A stretch of DNA of 64,000 nt from Clostridiaceae bacterium (GCA_012838315.1 DUPM01000136.1:1-64000); one strand, 5' to 3'; numbered from the stretch's first letter, positions 30,205 to 37,598 are shown. A program made the numbers and translations. Notes: generated from the letters alone by a model not told the origin.

Positions 30205-31395
30205 TTAAGAAATGTAATTGTCAAAATAGCCTTGTACCAGGACAATCGGCGTACCCTTGTCTCCGCTTCCGGATGTAAGGTCGCAAAGTGATCCAATTAA
30301 ATCAGTTAATCTGCGCGGCGTCGTTCCCTGAGACGCCATGTTGCCGACCATATCCGCTTCTTTCTTGCGAATATAATCAGAGATAGCTGCCTTAAGTGCA
30401 TCGCCTTCGAGGTCTGGAAATTCGTTGTCCGCCAAGTACTTGAGCTTGACCTCGTTCGGCTGCCCTTCAAGACCCTCGGTATATCCGGGAGAAACGACCG
30501 GATCGGCTAATTCCCATATTTTCCCAACCGGATCTTTAAATGCACCGTCGCCGTATATCATTGCTTCAACATGCTTTCCGGTTTTTTCGAGAATTCTGCG
30601 ACTGATGCCTTCGGCAACCACTTTACAATCTCTCGGAAACAGCTTCACGGACTCCTCGGTCGCTTTGTTGCTGCCCAGAAGACCATAATCCTCATTGAAT
30701 CCGCTACCCTCGACGGAAGTCTTTAATATGTGGGCGAGGCCAAAAACTTTCGTCGCACCCGCCTGCTTCAGAAGCCTCTGCGTGCGTGTACGCGAATGGA
30801 TATCACAATGCAAGACCGACTTCGTATAATCTAATATAGCGCGGCAATCATTGGCAAGAATCACTTCCGCCTCACAATTTTCAGCCTCAATCAGTTCTTT
30901 ATAGTAACTGATGTAATCCACGCCGGTAAATGTATGCTTGTTGTATCCAAACAACTCTCTGAAACGCGCTTCGGTCAGTACATCCACCCAAGGGTTAACA
31001 CCTTTTTCGTCAAGCAAATCTAAATCAACTAAATGATTGCCGACTTCATCCGCAGGATAACTGAGCATCAGTACAATTTTCTTCGAACCACGCGCAATGC
31101 CTTTAAGGCACATCGCGAAACGGTTACGAGAGAGAATCGGAAAAATGACACCGACACTGTCATCACCGAACTTGGCTTTGACATCCGCGGCTATTTGATC
31201 CACTGTTGCATAATTACCCTGTGTTCTTGCAATGACTGCCTCGGTGACGGCAACGACATCGCGATCGCGGAGTTCAAAACCATCCGCATGTGCTGCCTCC
31301 AGAACACTATTTGTGACAATTGTAATCACATCGTCGCCTTGGCGAAAAATCGGTGCACGAATACCGCGCGAAATTGTTCCAACTCGTCTTTCCAT
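30205..31395 (-). CDS. CofE-like protein (coenzyme F420-0:L-glutamate ligase family)
   Basis: The 396-residue product resembles the CofE/FbiB N-terminal family: RDRDVVAVTEAVIARTQG, FPILSRNRFAMCLKGIARG and the C-terminal PRRLTDLIGSL stretch. CofE adds glutamate to F420-0 in archaea and actinobacteria. Longer CofE-like proteins of this size occur in Clostridia that are not known to make F420, and their role is not settled. ATG 31395 has GGAGGG upstream and a near-consensus promoter (31421-31449) just before it. No other F420 gene is in the window. Confidence 0.75.
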   Translation of the reverse strand: MERRVGTISRGIRAPIFRQGDDVITIVTNSVLEAAHADGFELRDRDVVAVTEAVIARTQGNYATVDQIAADVKAKFGDDSVGVIFPILSRNRFAMCLKGIARGSKKIVLMLSYPADEVGNHLVDLDLLDEKGVNPWVDVLTEARFRELFGYNKHTFTGVDYISYYKELIEAENCEAEVILANDCRAILDYTKSVLHCDIHSRTRTQRLLKQAGATKVFGLAHILKTSVEGSGFNEDYGLLGSNKATEESVKLFPRDCKVVAEGISRRILEKTGKHVEAMIYGDGAFKDPVGKIWELADPVVSPGYTEGLEGQPNEVKLKYLADNEFPDLEGDALKAAISDYIRKKEADMVGNMASQGTTPRRLTDLIGSLCDLTSGSGDKGTPIVLVQGYFDNYIS

Positions 31396-31420
31396 TCCAA
31401 TCCCTCCTAACAACCAGACT

Positions 31421-31449
31421 ATTATATAACCTATAGGAAGTACTGACAA
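31421..31449 (-). promoter_or_regulatory. Sigma-A promoter of the CofE-like gene
   Basis: TTGTCA and TATAAT lie 17 bases apart on the minus strand, about 25 bases upstream of the start codon. Confidence 0.68.
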
Positions 31450-31572
31450 AGGTTTTTTCGTATTCATGGTTTTTTGCCGCAAATATGCATCAAAATACGT
31501 GCATTTATTGAATTAATTCAAAGAATTCACAGATTTCGATACACGAGCGATTCCTTGCCGTCTTTTCTTTTC

Positions 31573-31786: not shown

Positions 31787-32947
31787 TTAAAGGATAGTTC
31801 GACAGAGTTCAACCGCTCTTTGACCCAGCAAAACAAAAATCTGACCCAAAACGGCAAGCATTGAAAGTAAAGCAAAACTCATTGCTCCACCCGAAATGCA
31901 ATTAAACGGCTTAGTAAAAAGAGCCTTTCTTGCGGCAACGCGAATGAGTACTAAAACAAGTAACATCAAAAACACCGCAAAAATAAATTCAACGGCCACC
32001 AACAAGACATTTGACAGAGAGAATACACGCTCCCCAAGTACAACCGAAATCATTTCAGATGGCAAAACGACCAGAAAAACATGGGCCGGAAGAATGATTA
32101 AATTCAGAAGTGGATCGGAAAACACCAGACGACCGGCCTTCGTGTATTCAGAATAAAAGAACACCAACACAGTCGGCACAACAACTGCAAGCGACATAAT
32201 CGAAGAAGGAAGTTTCAAGGTTGAGAACACGCTCAAAAGGATTGTTGATGCACCCGCGAGAAAACCCGTCCAAAATGAAAAAAGAAGCATTCCACCAATT
32301 AATGAAGACTCATTATCAACCGGTGAAAAACGGCTATAAACCGTCGATTCGGAGTGTGAGTGCGGAACCATCTTAAACGTCCAATGACCTTTTCTCCGGT
32401 AGATAAAAACAACAGCTGCTGTTACGGCAGACAAAATCATCAAGATGCCAGCGGGATGCATCAATATATATATTTGAGGCATGCGCAATAATGTCATTCC
32501 CAAAAATGACTCGTATGTCCATGCATGTCTTAATGCCCCCAAAAACAACATCATCACAAGAAAAGCAGCATACGAGAGGAGTCCAAAAGATCGGTTTCTT
32601 CGTCCGTATAATACATAAGTTGAAATCATCGGACTCAGCAACAATAAATATGCACCTTTTGAAATTCCGAAAGCATCGACAAACGCCTGCGGTACGCGAA
32701 TAAATTCCGGCAAATAGCCCAAAGCCAGCGTAATAAAACGAACGGCAATAATGACACCTATCAGATGCGCAACAGGATGTTTTCGAGGTATCAGATTCGC
32801 GATGGGAATGCAGAACAGAAGGATGATGAAAACACTCGCAATCGTCATAATCGATTCGAATAAGTTATTGCTTCTTAGCGCCAACAGTAAGCCGAATGTC
32901 AGAACCGACACAAATCGAAACACACCGAACTCACCTGTCTTATTCAT
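31787..32947 (-). CDS. Divergent membrane protein resembling an RnfE-RnfA fusion
   Basis: The protein (386 residues from ATG 32947) has about 11-12 membrane helices in two halves joined by a polar linker near residue 195. The first half resembles RnfE: FGLLSYAAFLVMMLFLGALR and MHPAGILMIL align with conserved late segments of RnfE. The second resembles RnfA: FTKPFNCISGGAMSFALLSM matches the RnfA C-terminus (KPFxGxPIALxxAGLMS). The cysteines that hold the RnfA/RnfE iron-sulfur cluster are not found at the expected places (VLYGRR replaces the CxxLGR area). ATG 32947 has GAGGAG upstream. Its place at the end of rnfC-rnfD-rnfG supports the assignment; similarity is weak. Confidence 0.6.
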   Translation of the reverse strand: MNKTGEFGVFRFVSVLTFGLLLALRSNNLFESIMTIASVFIILLFCIPIANLIPRKHPVAHLIGVIIAVRFITLALGYLPEFIRVPQAFVDAFGISKGAYLLLLSPMISTYVLYGRRNRSFGLLSYAAFLVMMLFLGALRHAWTYESFLGMTLLRMPQIYILMHPAGILMILSAVTAAVVFIYRRKGHWTFKMVPHSHSESTVYSRFSPVDNESSLIGGMLLFSFWTGFLAGASTILLSVFSTLKLPSSIMSLAVVVPTVLVFFYSEYTKAGRLVFSDPLLNLIILPAHVFLVVLPSEMISVVLGERVFSLSNVLLVAVEFIFAVFLMLLVLVLIRVAARKALFTKPFNCISGGAMSFALLSMLAVLGQIFVLLGQRAVELCRTIL

Positions 32948-32958
32948 GCATAGTCTCC

Positions 32959-34173
32959 TCAAAGAACATAATCACGTATGTATTTGTATCCGGTATTGAC
33001 AGCGCTCACCAATGTCGCCGAGAACTCCGGTGCCGAATCCACGCCCAGAATCTGGGTCCGGATCTCAGACAAGGGCAGTCCGTCAACGCTCTCAATAAGA
33101 TTATCTCCTACCTCACCCGGAACGACGACCCCGTCCTCAATGCCACCATTATCAATCTCGACTTTCGCTGTATCAGAGGGAATCGAAACCTCATCACCTG
33201 GAAAATTGCTCGCGTCTTCAGCATCATTGCTCACACTCGGAAGCTCTTCCGCTTCAGAGGGTTCCGTTCCGGTCTCTTCCGTCCGTTCGCCTTCTGTCGG
33301 AATTTCCTTGATTACATTATTCCTAGAATTCTCAATACATTCTTTGGCTAATCGATAAAACACATTTACTTTCATGTCTACACCATCGACAATTTCCGTA
33401 TAGCCATCAGATTTAATCGCCAATTTATCTAAATCCTGTACCTTAACCAGCATGTTCTCCATTGAATAAGATTGTGCTGCCCATATTTGTTGACCATCGG
33501 GCATATTGTATTCGCCGTCAACTGAAGATTGAGCTCTATTCTTCCCGCCGTCTTTGGCTTCTGCATCCCAATTCACAGAAATGATTCGTCCGTCTTTCAC
33601 CGTTATTTCAACATAATCCTTATATCCCGAATTGTCATAATCATCATTCTCTGCAAAAAAAACACCGTCATGAAGCCCCTCTACAGATGGGTATTCACTA
33701 TATATAAGTTCTTCGCTATTGTATTCAAGCTGCAACGCAACGGGAATACGAACGCCCTGCAATTGACCATTAAGTGCATCCATCACATTCAAAGACGGAA
33801 GGGATTGCATCGATGAATCCAAAACCTCGATAGCTAGCAATCGATCGCCTGTTTCAGAAATCGCCATTCTTGAAGACAACTCTCCCTGATCGGTCGAAAT
33901 CCTCACCGTCAGAACATACCCCAACACTTTTCGATTCATATCATATGCAATATAGAAATCACTGACACTGCCGTCTGAAATTGCTTCCGGAACCTCATAA
34001 GCTTCGAAACGATCGGCATCAATCAAATGCCCCATGTTTTGTCTGAAATAATTTTGAGTTTTCTCTTGCCGCGAATAATTTGAAATCAGCGCACTCCCTA
34101 TAAGTGCAACCAGTGAAAGAGACACCATAATAATGGCGCTTAAAACAATTTTCCTTGCATCAGATCGATTCAT
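32959..34173 (-). CDS. RnfG-like membrane-anchored flavoprotein with extra domain
   Basis: The 404-residue product has a single N-terminal membrane helix (9-30) and RnfG-like strands (VLGYVLTVRI, 83-92). Residues 166-282 form a separate domain like small extracytoplasmic FMN-binding modules (GLHDGVFF, ITVKDGRIISV, IVDGVDMKVNVF). The Thr of the usual SGVT there is Asp (DGVD). Residues 285-355 are an acidic, Pro/Ser-rich linker. Residues 365-404 resemble the RnfG C-terminus, where SATLVS (385-390) may keep the FMN-attachment Thr. RnfG is usually about 200 residues long. It overlaps rnfD by four bases. Confidence 0.68.
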   Translation of the reverse strand: MNRSDARKIVLSAIIMVSLSLVALIGSALISNYSRQEKTQNYFRQNMGHLIDADRFEAYEVPEAISDGSVSDFYIAYDMNRKVLGYVLTVRISTDQGELSSRMAISETGDRLLAIEVLDSSMQSLPSLNVMDALNGQLQGVRIPVALQLEYNSEELIYSEYPSVEGLHDGVFFAENDDYDNSGYKDYVEITVKDGRIISVNWDAEAKDGGKNRAQSSVDGEYNMPDGQQIWAAQSYSMENMLVKVQDLDKLAIKSDGYTEIVDGVDMKVNVFYRLAKECIENSRNNVIKEIPTEGERTEETGTEPSEAEELPSVSNDAEDASNFPGDEVSIPSDTAKVEIDNGGIEDGVVVPGEVGDNLIESVDGLPLSEIRTQILGVDSAPEFSATLVSAVNTGYKYIRDYVL

Positions 34174-35171
34174 GGCTCCACCTCTTCAGCATGAGTCTCA
34201 ACAAGCTTCGACACCTTAGGATTCCGATTGTCTATATCTTGCGCGAAAAGTCTTGGCCGTGTGTAGAAATCGGCAATCGGTGTCAAAAAATTCATCAAAA
34301 GAACCGGCAATAGCAACGCAAAAACCGGTTGACCTAGGAGATAAATAACTGCCGAAAGAAAACCAGTCAGAAAAGCAGCGACAACCCTAAAGCGAGAATC
34401 AATCGGCGAAGTCGCATAATCATTCACGGCAAAAACGGCAACGAAAACAACACCACTTTCAGCAATGGCCTGAATCAGTCCGACCGATTCTGTGCGGTAT
34501 CCTGAAAAAACGACAAACGTAAGAATAAATGTAACAAGGACTGCCAACGGCTCATGGGGTCGAATAACACCATTAAGCAATAAGTAAATACCACCGAAAA
34601 TGATCAACACGACTGCCGATGCACCCATGAAGCCGGGAACGGCACCCATGAACCATTCGGTAAAGTCCGAGAGGGCGTCTGCGGCATATGCCGAGGAGTC
34701 ACTTGAACTTCCGGCAAAAAGTGTTTGTATCACCCATCTTTCTTTGCCGGGTAAAACGACATCGTAGTCTCGTACTCTGTAGATGACTTCGATAAATGCT
34801 CTTCCGATCAGCGCCGGATTAAACAAGTTGGTTCCCGCTCCGCCAAAGACTTGCTTCACAAAAATGGATGCAAAAGCGACTCCGACAAAAAGATGAAGCA
34901 TAGATATATTGGCCGGTAACATCAGCGCAATCATGATGCCACTGATCAATGAGCTAATATCATAATAATGGATATCCTTATAAAGCAATACCGAGATAAT
35001 GCGATCACTGACAAGAAAAAGTAGTGCGGACCATAAAATGAGGACAATTGCTCGAACACCATAGAAAAAAACAGCCGCAACACATGGTGGTATCAATGCC
35101 ACTAAAACATGCAAATATATGTATGGTGAGCTTGCATGTCGGTGAATATGGGGTGCCGGTCGCAACGTCAT
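34170..35171 (-). CDS. rnfD: RnfD-like membrane subunit
   Basis: The 333-residue membrane protein has NLFNPALIGRAF near residue 115, FMGASAVVLIIFGGIYLL and VNDYATSPID, all RnfD/NqrB signatures. The flavin-attachment motif SGATP normally found before FLGxxPGSxG is not visible; the stretch there reads SSSDSSAYAADALSD. ATG 35171 overlaps the rnfC stop (ATGA) and has AGGGGG upstream; the longer frame to 35273 would sit inside rnfC. Part of the divergent Rnf-like operon. Confidence 0.87.
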   Translation of the reverse strand: MTLRPAPHIHRHASSPYIYLHVLVALIPPCVAAVFFYGVRAIVLILWSALLFLVSDRIISVLLYKDIHYYDISSLISGIMIALMLPANISMLHLFVGVAFASIFVKQVFGGAGTNLFNPALIGRAFIEVIYRVRDYDVVLPGKERWVIQTLFAGSSSDSSAYAADALSDFTEWFMGAVPGFMGASAVVLIIFGGIYLLLNGVIRPHEPLAVLVTFILTFVVFSGYRTESVGLIQAIAESGVVFVAVFAVNDYATSPIDSRFRVVAAFLTGFLSAVIYLLGQPVFALLLPVLLMNFLTPIADFYTRPRLFAQDIDNRNPKVSKLVETHAEEVEP

Positions 35172-36508
35172 GACCGCCCCCTTCTTCTGGCACGGTGCCC
35201 TGCTCTTGAAATTGTGAAAGCGAGATCTTTGCCAGCAGGACAAACGAACGAACACGCCCCACAAGATATACATTGAGCTACGCCTAATTCTTCAACTGTT
35301 TTTTCATCTCCAACCTCAAGAAGCCTGTGACAGAGATAGGGTTGTAATCCGACAGGACATGCATCGATGCAAGCACCACAATGTACACAAGGTGTCTTAG
35401 GCGGGTCACTCTTTCGGATTAATGCCAAGCCCTGTGTAGTCTTAATAATCGGCACGTGCGCATTCGTAAGGCAAGCACCGGTTATTGCACCACCCATAAC
35501 AATACGATTGGCGGATGCCGCACCGGGCACTCTTGCCAGTATCTCGTCAGCATACGAGCCAATCGGCACCAGCATGTTGTGACCTTGCGTCGTATCACCG
35601 GAAATCGATATAATTCGCTGGACCAAAGGCATATTCCTCTCGACCATATCAGCGACAGCCGCGCATGTCGACACATTAAAGACGACAGCGCCAACTGTGT
35701 TTTCAGGTCTACGACCTGCAGGCAATTCAACATTGTATAACGCTTTAATCAACAAACGCTCATATCCTTGAGGAAAACGAGATCTCATGACTCGAACAAT
35801 AAATTTGCGGTCCGGATAGACGGTTTGAAAACGGGCAAACGCATCTCGAAGCGCTTCAAGTTCGATCAACCACTTATCCATAACACAAAAAACGACATTG
35901 CTAACTTTGCATAAACCGCTAAGTGCACCTGCCCCTCTGATAACACGATCCAGCTGCTCTCGCAAAAGATGAATATCACCACTCAAATAAGGCTCGCTTT
36001 GACATGCATTCACAATCAATGTCGACACCCCTTCTTGGTAGGCGCGCACACATTTTTTAGCCGTCGGATAACCCTCACCGCCCATACCGACAATGCCCGA
36101 AAAATCAAGCAACTTCGAAATGACAGATGGCGTTAATCGCTCAGGCTTCTCTCTTCGCTGTATGGATGTGTGAAGCGTTCTTTTGTGATCATTAGTGATT
36201 TCGACAGCCATACAATGTTTACGGTTTAGCAATTCGTATTGCTTAATGCCCGTTACTGTCCCGGAAATACCGGTATGGACCGGAACACTCAACGGGCCAG
36301 AAGACCGTCCGATCATCTGACCGACTGTGACCTTTTCACCTACTTTTACTATTGGTTCTGCCGGCTCACCGATGTGCTGCAGCATCGGCAGCAAAATTTC
36401 GCGCGGTGAAAAAACCTCAAGCACAGGCTCTCGAGGAAAATCCAACTTTCCGTCGAACGCCAATCCGTCCATCGGAAACCAGCCCTTTTTGAATGAAAGT
36501 TTCTTCAT
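35168..36508 (-). CDS. rnfC: RnfC-like electron transport subunit
   Basis: This 446-residue cytoplasmic subunit carries the NADH/flavin-binding part (GIVGMGGEGYPTAKK near 140-154) and two 4Fe-4S motifs, with cysteines at 374, 377, 380, 384 and 413, 416, 419, 423. The conserved NACECEPYL reads NACQSEPYL, so one cysteine is gone. RnfC is the NAD-side module in Rnf complexes. It starts 22 bases after rpoD and shares an ATGA overlap with rnfD. Confidence 0.92.
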   Translation of the reverse strand: MKKLSFKKGWFPMDGLAFDGKLDFPREPVLEVFSPREILLPMLQHIGEPAEPIVKVGEKVTVGQMIGRSSGPLSVPVHTGISGTVTGIKQYELLNRKHCMAVEITNDHKRTLHTSIQRREKPERLTPSVISKLLDFSGIVGMGGEGYPTAKKCVRAYQEGVSTLIVNACQSEPYLSGDIHLLREQLDRVIRGAGALSGLCKVSNVVFCVMDKWLIELEALRDAFARFQTVYPDRKFIVRVMRSRFPQGYERLLIKALYNVELPAGRRPENTVGAVVFNVSTCAAVADMVERNMPLVQRIISISGDTTQGHNMLVPIGSYADEILARVPGAASANRIVMGGAITGACLTNAHVPIIKTTQGLALIRKSDPPKTPCVHCGACIDACPVGLQPYLCHRLLEVGDEKTVEELGVAQCISCGACSFVCPAGKDLAFTISRAGHRARRRGRS

Positions 36509-36530: not shown

Positions 36531-37598
36531 TCAGTCGATGTAATCCTTCAATTTCTTGCTGCGACTGGGATGACGCAATTTGCGAAGCGCTTTTGCTTCG
36601 ATTTGACGAATGCGCTCACGCGTGACGTTGAACTCACGCCCCACCTCTTCCAATGTACGTTGTCTGCCGTCATCAAGACCAAATCGAAGTCTGAGCACAT
36701 TTTCTTCGCGAGGCGTTAATCCGCTCATCGCTTCGATCAACTGCTCTTTTAGCAACGTATACGCCACCTGATCCGCAGGAGACATCGCATCATCATCGGG
36801 AATAAAGTCACCCAGATGGCTATCCTCCTCTTCGCCGATTGGTTTTTCCAAAGATACCGGCTCCTGAGAGATCTTCTGGATCTCACGAACCTTCTCAACA
36901 GGAATGCCCATCTCTTCTGCAATCTCTTCAACCTCAGGCTCTCTGCCAAGTTCCTGAATCAAAGAACGCTGAACACGAACCAGACGATTGATGGTCTCGA
37001 CCATGTGAACAGGAATACGAATGGTACGCGCTTGATCCGCGATGGCTCGCGTGATTGCCTGACGAATCCACCATGTTGCATATGTGCTGAACTTAAAACC
37101 TTTGGAGTGGTCAAATTTGTCTACGGCCTTAATCAAGCCAAGGTTGCCTTCTTGAATGAGATCAAGAAATTGCATGCCTCGTCCAAGATACCTTTTAGCA
37201 ATGGATACAACCAATCTCAGGTTAGCCTCGATAAGCATATCCTTCGCATCGTTTTCGCCTTCAAGCATTCTCTTTGCATAATCCTGTTCTTGCTCAGCGG
37301 TCAAGAGCGGCACCTTGCCAATCTCCTTGAGATACATGCGAACCGGATCATCCATGCCGATTGATTCGCCGGCAGACCCGGCCATATCAAGATCAACACC
37401 ACTTTCTTCCTCGACATTGGTCTCAGGAATAATTTCCACGCCTTTGTCTTGCAAAGTGTCAAAAATCTTCTCCGCATCGTCCGGGTCAATGTCATGCTTC
37501 TCGATAAGCGACATCATGTCCTTATAGCTGATACTATTGTTGTTCGCTGCGGCACGTTTTTCAATCTGTTGAAGAATCGAACGAAAATCACTGGCCAT
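36531..37598 (-). CDS. rpoD: Primary RNA polymerase sigma factor
   Basis: The 355-residue sigma-70 factor has region 1.1-like and 1.2 segments ([17 protein letters not shown]), region 2 ([30 protein letters not shown]), region 3 and region 4 ([20 protein letters not shown]). It lacks the large non-conserved insert of proteobacterial RpoD, as in Firmicutes SigA. AGGAGG precedes the ATG. In many Firmicutes rpoD follows dnaG; here the upstream gene is a zinc-ribbon membrane protein and rnfC follows directly. Confidence 0.97.

Follow-up and report, generated by a model that had tools for sequence, protein, structure and literature searches.

The window analysed here is a 64,000-nucleotide stretch from a Clostridiaceae bacterium (GCA_012838315.1, DUPM01000136.1:1-64000), and it carries a divergent four-gene cluster descended from the rnfCDGEA genes of the Rnf complex. 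The family of the organism we take, from its named relatives, to be Saccharofermentanaceae in GTDB usage. Its genes and motifs lie on the minus strand, as does the adjoining rpoD, and the genes of the divergent cluster are marked with a prime. They are rnfC' (446 amino acids, 35168..36508), rnfD' (34170..35171), rnfG' (404 amino acids, 32959..34173) and a fused (rnfE-rnfA)' (31787..32947), within the span for which a first-pass annotation had given correct coordinates. The product of rnfD' comprises 333 residues from a likely ATG at 35171, chosen by comparison with L007, in an open reading frame (ORF) that begins at 35273; the fusion comprises 386 residues from a likely ATG at 32947, its ORF opening with a TTG at 32962. 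The presumed first gene of the operon is rpoD/sigA (355 amino acids, 36531..37598; Sigma70 regions 1.1-4), which is separated from rnfC' by 22 bp, and the subsequent genes overlap or abut. The order C-D-G-E-A is preserved, which is in itself evidence that the last gene represents RnfE and RnfA. As first noted, rnfB is absent from the cluster; the canonical rnfB of this genome is found on contig C23 only.

The first two proteins are as clear as the first-pass annotation had stated (RnfC', TIGR01945, E=8e-96; RnfD', PF03116, E=1.6e-59). RnfC' retains the glycine-rich, NuoF-like loop for flavin mononucleotide (FMN) as well as both CxxCxxCxxxC [4Fe-4S] motifs, which are found in 79/79 proteins of the family and in the window take the form CxxCxxCxxxCP (35237..35389). 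The replacement of NACECEP by NACQSEP (35990..36010), by which the invariant Glu-Cys of ECEP becomes Gln-Ser, proved to be fixed across the family, with QSEP (once QNEP) in 78/79 RnfC' and no match in the remaining row; the canonical RnfC of the same family has ECEP. Aligned by motif, the Glu of ECEP would be the equivalent of Glu95 in complex I, which adjoins FMN and nicotinamide and whose E95Q exchange raises the production of reactive oxygen species (PMC11677225).

The residue roles assigned here come from the Rnf structures of A. woodii and C. tetanomorphum (PMC11889175, PMC9588780). In A. woodii Rnf, riboflavin is bound by two residues, an Asn and an Asp (PMC11889175, PMC9588780), both retained at the riboflavin/Na+ site of RnfD': the Asn in 76/83 proteins (NPALIGR, 34800..34820) and the Asp in 80/83 (VNDYATSP, 34404..34427). 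The FMN pocket is lost, with N90 in 0/83, E185 in 1/83 and S284 in 0/83, and the covalently modified Thr is gone; the absence of SGATP from this protein (site at 34680..34721), suspected at first reading, is borne out by sequence comparison. All canonical RnfD of the family have SSATP. No RnfD' has SGAT, SSAT occurs in G003/L050 only (record L148), and SSAS occurs in three other rows. The RnfD' of G003/L050 is the most basal, and DTISSATP and the Glu are still present in it as a relic of an older state.

Neither RnfG' nor the last protein matches any Pfam family, in line with the divergence first ascribed to these two genes. RnfG' was identified by profile comparison with RnfG (hhalign, P=4.8e-10) together with an AlphaFold2 model and Foldseek. 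It is built from the N-terminal helix and half-domain of RnfG, an inserted FMN_bind-type domain, a low-complexity linker and a C-terminal RnfG helix from which SGAT is missing, the flavin Thr of this helix being present in 0/87 proteins. The inserted domain (residues 163-290, 33304..33687) matches PDB 2kzx (phmmer 6.7e-21, Foldseek 9e-9) with 39% identity in the fold match. At the position of the 2kzx SGAT it has [D/P/E/K]GV(T), which reads DGVD in the window's species; the Thr is present in 79/86 proteins and is replaced by Asp or Glu in the genus of the window. A covalent flavin on this Thr is unlikely, because most of the genomes that encode it lack the flavin transferase ApbE. The pocket of the insert may still hold a ligand, since the residues that are invariant in it (W202, W231, Q234, Q246 and T259) are those common with 2kzx. 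A nearly invariant extracytosolic cysteine, C279 (33337-33339, within ECIENSRN at 33319..33342), is present in 85/86 proteins; it does not occur in the 2kzx domain and has no equally conserved partner cysteine.

The last gene had been described as RnfE and RnfA in one chain without the membrane iron-sulfur cysteines, and comparison of each half with the parent families bears this description out. In a profile comparison with a 12-row alignment the first half is related to RnfE (P=1e-5), and the end of the second half is weakly related to RnfA, colinear and in register. With all 85 fusion proteins the hhalign values are weaker (P about 1e-3 for RnfE and 8e-3 for RnfA), with reversed decoys at or above about 0.03. 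Single fusion sequences reach PF02508 in 0/17 members, and one member reaches TIGR01948 (rnfE) at 9e-4. The AlphaFold2 model of the fusion has a mean confidence (pLDDT) of 68; Foldseek pairs it with RnfE (9eri_E, probability 0.97) and NqrD (0.6-0.87), E-values being not significant, and only the high probabilities for RnfE/NqrD chains were used. By hydropathy most fusions have 6+5 helices, and their positive loops alternate, which places the linker in the cytosol. Canonical RnfE has six helices with the N-terminus inside, and RnfA six with the N-terminus outside. The apparent loss of one RnfA helix is what a single chain would need for the two halves to keep opposite orientations. All four ligand cysteines of the RnfA/E [2Fe2S] cluster are absent, and no cysteine column is common to the family: LLLLSPMIS (32621..32647) has SP at the position of the RnfE ligand motif VNC, and LIILPAHVF (32075..32101), in a register set by eye from comparison with RnfA and the count of membrane helices, has PAH at that of the RnfA motif TNC.

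With RnfB, the [2Fe2S] cysteines, the FMN pocket of RnfD and the flavin Thr of RnfG all lost, the ferredoxin-RnfB-[2Fe2S]-FMN(G)-FMN(D) circuit is impossible in this cluster. The first-pass annotation had proposed a different electron path or partner; the usual path is indeed gone family-wide, which supports the negative half of that proposal, and a new partner or electron acceptor is its conjectural half. To judge from the sequence, the cytosolic limb, NAD(H)-FMN(C)-2[4Fe-4S]-riboflavin(D), is kept whole, which that annotation had missed. Its description of the cluster as a reduced Rnf is misleading. A search for another complete set found an ordinary rnfC-D-G-E-A-B operon in this genome, on contig C23, and the genome also holds one copy of ApbE; loss of the cell's only Rnf is thereby rejected, and the cluster is a specialised second copy in a cell that also has Rnf in full, rather than that cell's Rnf in decay. 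The canonical RnfG of this genome (L003:2478-3149) has the flavin motif SRAT in place of SGAT, as does that of G001 (L226); elsewhere in the family, canonical RnfG has SGAT.

An RnfG' alignment search found the cluster in 113/115 Saccharofermentanaceae genomes, a count that includes a few in which the match is split over two pieces; conservation in relatives, one of the checks first proposed, is thus established, and next to rpoD. These anaerobes come from digesters, rumen and horse gut and include the isolates KHP2, YAD3003 and YRB3002. In the order's other families, RnfG-plus-insert matches occur in two genomes only (G174 and G175). Full-length RnfG' was found outside the family in neither the class sample (291 genomes) nor the phylum sample (398 genomes); the phylum-wide search returned, outside the order, stand-alone insert domains only, and a plasmid search gave no match. 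Literature searches found no description of such a cluster. Across close relatives, where dS could be estimated, the ratio of nonsynonymous to synonymous substitution rates (dN/dS) is 0.02-0.19 for all four genes, and the cluster is under strong purifying selection. The last gene diverges fast (10-20% identity between genera).

Most species of the family keep the cluster having lost Rnf, RnfB and the flavin transferase. Canonical RnfA/E (PF02508) are found in 28/113 genomes, with no case in the large genus g4; ApbE in 32/111, three of them in g4; and RnfB-type FeS domains in 32/111, where g4 is represented by two ORFs of an unlike length, about 560 amino acids. Some 85 species of one genus are without ordinary RnfA/E, nearly all of them also without RnfB and ApbE, and still keep the cluster. 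A sigma-type ORF stands beside rnfC' in 101/101 loci, most gaps being -1 to 48 bp and the larger ones stemming from automatically picked ORF ends; this operon linkage suggests housekeeping expression. That the four genes are fixed directly behind a housekeeping sigma factor gene at every locus examined is puzzling for a relative of a membrane oxidoreductase. The next sizeable gene past the fusion is of the F420_ligase type: a F420-0:gamma-glutamyl ligase domain (PF01996, E=2e-57) lies at 30205-31482, just downstream of the cluster, in a host that belongs to the fermenting Clostridia.

Another family of the order (G174, G175) has a sister cluster, apbE-rnfC''-rnfD''-rnfG''-rnfE''-rnfA'' followed by a gene for N-acetylmuramoyl-L-alanine amidase (L268:3044-10558 and L269/L270); its apbE was seen in G175, the cluster of G174 being split over contigs. 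Here E'' and A'' are encoded separately and, in our own reading of the register, lack the ligand cysteines. A'' is related to canonical RnfA (phmmer 2e-8, hhalign P=3e-6) and E'' weakly, in register, to RnfE (hhalign P=0.016). RnfG'' has two inserts and keeps the final SGAT, RnfD'' is without SGAT, and RnfC'' keeps its Fe-S motifs but not the glycine loop for FMN. The two families share the absence of RnfB, a cysteine-less E/A pair, no FMN on D, Fe-S motifs on C and an insert in G, and the ferredoxin side is lost in the sister cluster as well. In the RnfC tree RnfC' and RnfC'' lie together on the same side of a 99% branch, with long branches (the row L042, a wrongly picked neighbour gene, was ignored), and in the RnfD tree the proteins of the two families are not joined; the two clusters may plausibly go back to one origin. 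With its ApbE and SGAT, the sister cluster resembles an electron exporter working on the principle suggested for Nqr/Rnf-like systems (PMC11334425). Other families of the class also have clostridial D-G-E-A clusters that lack a recognised RnfC next to them (L271-L276), several being followed by a gene of about 365 amino acids; these clusters are possibly NQR-type.

The cluster shares with Rnf (A. woodii 9eri, C. tetanomorphum 7zc6) the gene order, the two [4Fe-4S] motifs and FMN loop of RnfC, the fold and riboflavin Asn/Asp of RnfD, the N-terminal part of RnfG and the folds of RnfE/A. It differs in having no RnfB, no [2Fe2S] cysteines and no covalent FMN on RnfD or RnfG, and in its extra FMN_bind-type domain, its fused E and A of 6+5 helices and the change of ECEP to QSEP. 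The inserted domain resembles the FMN_bind domains of the 2kzx kind (C. thermocellum A3DHT5, PplA-like) but sits inside RnfG and has DGV(T/D) for SGAT. Na+-NQR (NqrABCDEF) is likewise an Rnf-derived complex, which arose by duplication of the rnf operon and loss of RnfB (PMC12174285); whereas the transmembrane chain is complete in NQR, which has acquired NqrF, that of the present cluster is cut, and no NqrF (the FAD/[2Fe2S] NADH dehydrogenase) is in the cluster, which ends with the E-A fusion. A quinone as acceptor, as in NQR, seems less likely, since no quinone-type prenyltransferase was found in the genome itself (UbiA-type: none here, 16/58 in the family). Nqr/Rnf-like two-subunit systems, proposed to be electron exporters (PMC8238504, PMC11334425), also combine an RnfD-type protein that lacks the flavinylation Thr with an RnfG-type partner and no RnfB. 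In those systems, however, RnfD carries a fused NAD domain of the NqrF type and its partner is flavinylated, whereas in the present cluster RnfC is the NAD(H) module and the partner cannot be flavinylated at the known sites; a Pfam profile search found no NqrF-type NAD domain (PF00175) fused to RnfD', and the cluster has neither a flavinylated NqrC/RnfG partner nor ApbE, both of which are present in the sister cluster. By descent the cluster belongs, as a derived form, to the Rnf/NQR superfamily, and it lies outside Rnf by function-defining features, four of which it lacks.

That the cluster is a paralogue other than the ferredoxin:NAD+ pump is very likely. The half-chain on the cytosolic side is probably still redox-active: electrons would pass between NAD(H), FMN(C), the two [4Fe-4S] clusters and riboflavin(D), probably from NADH to the membrane subunit. 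As a whole, we regard a neofunctionalised second Rnf with a job other than ferredoxin:NAD+ ion pumping, most likely a one-way, NADH-fed membrane oxidoreductase, as a reading about evenly poised between right and wrong; transfer to an extracytosolic acceptor is the likeliest single function, put forward tentatively. Such an oxidoreductase would be built from the 'return half' of Rnf, with the cysteine-less fusion as scaffold and docking site for RnfG'. The most speculative step is that from riboflavin to the acceptor, which might run through a non-covalent flavin or another ligand in the RnfG' insert.

Several observations weigh against one-way export. The loss of FMN(D) leaves no known carrier from riboflavin to the outer face, and in the window's species no covalent flavin site exists outside the cytosol (DGVD in the insert, no SGAT in the RnfG helix). 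No gene for an acceptor or partner accompanies the cluster. The riboflavin Asn/Asp also bind cations, so their conservation falls short of proving riboflavin, and the basal RnfD' of G003 has His at the Asn. The invariant Glu of RnfC is now Gln, by which the NADH chemistry may be altered, and in the sister family RnfC has lost its FMN glycine loop instead.

The sole survivors are the cytosolic redox chain and the Asn/Asp site of RnfD, every known outer-face carrier being gone, and this pattern speaks for the main rival, a device in which NAD(H) gates an ion path or a change of conformation. RnfC' would read NADH/NAD+, its clusters would charge and discharge the riboflavin of RnfD', and that charge would open or close a cation path at the Asn/Asp site with no net electron export, RnfG' and the fusion being structural or regulatory. 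Rnf would then have turned into a redox-controlled switch that moves no electrons across the membrane, its cytosolic half gating ions or signalling the NADH state. We know of no precedent for Rnf as a gated channel. The constant rpoD linkage suits a housekeeping role of this sort, RnfD is related to ammonium/urea transporters, and a conformational mechanism is the assumed basis of Rnf coupling (PMC12174285, PMC9588780); such a device would, however, leave no role for the flavin-domain fold of the RnfG' insert or for the conserved residues of that fold, and we consider it rather unlikely. Less probable again is a non-redox scaffold, receptor or transporter in which the Fe-S fold of RnfC is kept for structure. 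Most redox sites are lost, NqrA offers the precedent of a cofactor-free RnfC relative (PMC12174285), and the invariant extracytosolic Cys and Trp/Gln/Tyr residues of RnfG' suggest binding of a ligand or partner, but eight Fe-S cysteines in 79/79 RnfC' are hard to explain without electron transfer, and NqrA lost them.

Two further explanations run into the distribution of the cluster. An ordinary ferredoxin:NAD+ Rnf that borrows RnfB or A/E from the canonical operon is conceivable in the window's genome, which has canonical rnfB, A and E as well as ApbE; the cluster persists, however, in genomes without canonical RnfB/A/E, and the RnfD and RnfG that it encodes are unable to hold FMN in the usual places, which makes borrowing highly improbable. 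The many lost catalytic residues and the fast divergence of the last gene could be read as a degenerating Rnf duplicate or as an assembly or sequencing artefact, but equal gene order and losses in 113/115 genomes, the low dN/dS and retention where canonical Rnf has been lost refute degeneration and rule out error, leaving this explanation a vanishingly small chance.

Evolution has thus deleted most of a transmembrane redox chain while the folds and the cytosolic chain remained under selection across a whole family, and in Saccharofermentans the cluster outlives its parent pump. It would represent, like NQR, another and independent outcome of a duplicated rnf operon with loss of RnfB, and, as an experiment run by nature, it can help to show which parts of Rnf/NQR are required by redox coupling, by the ion path and by docking. 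For annotation of these rumen and digester anaerobes, matches to RnfC and RnfD do not amount to an Rnf pump.

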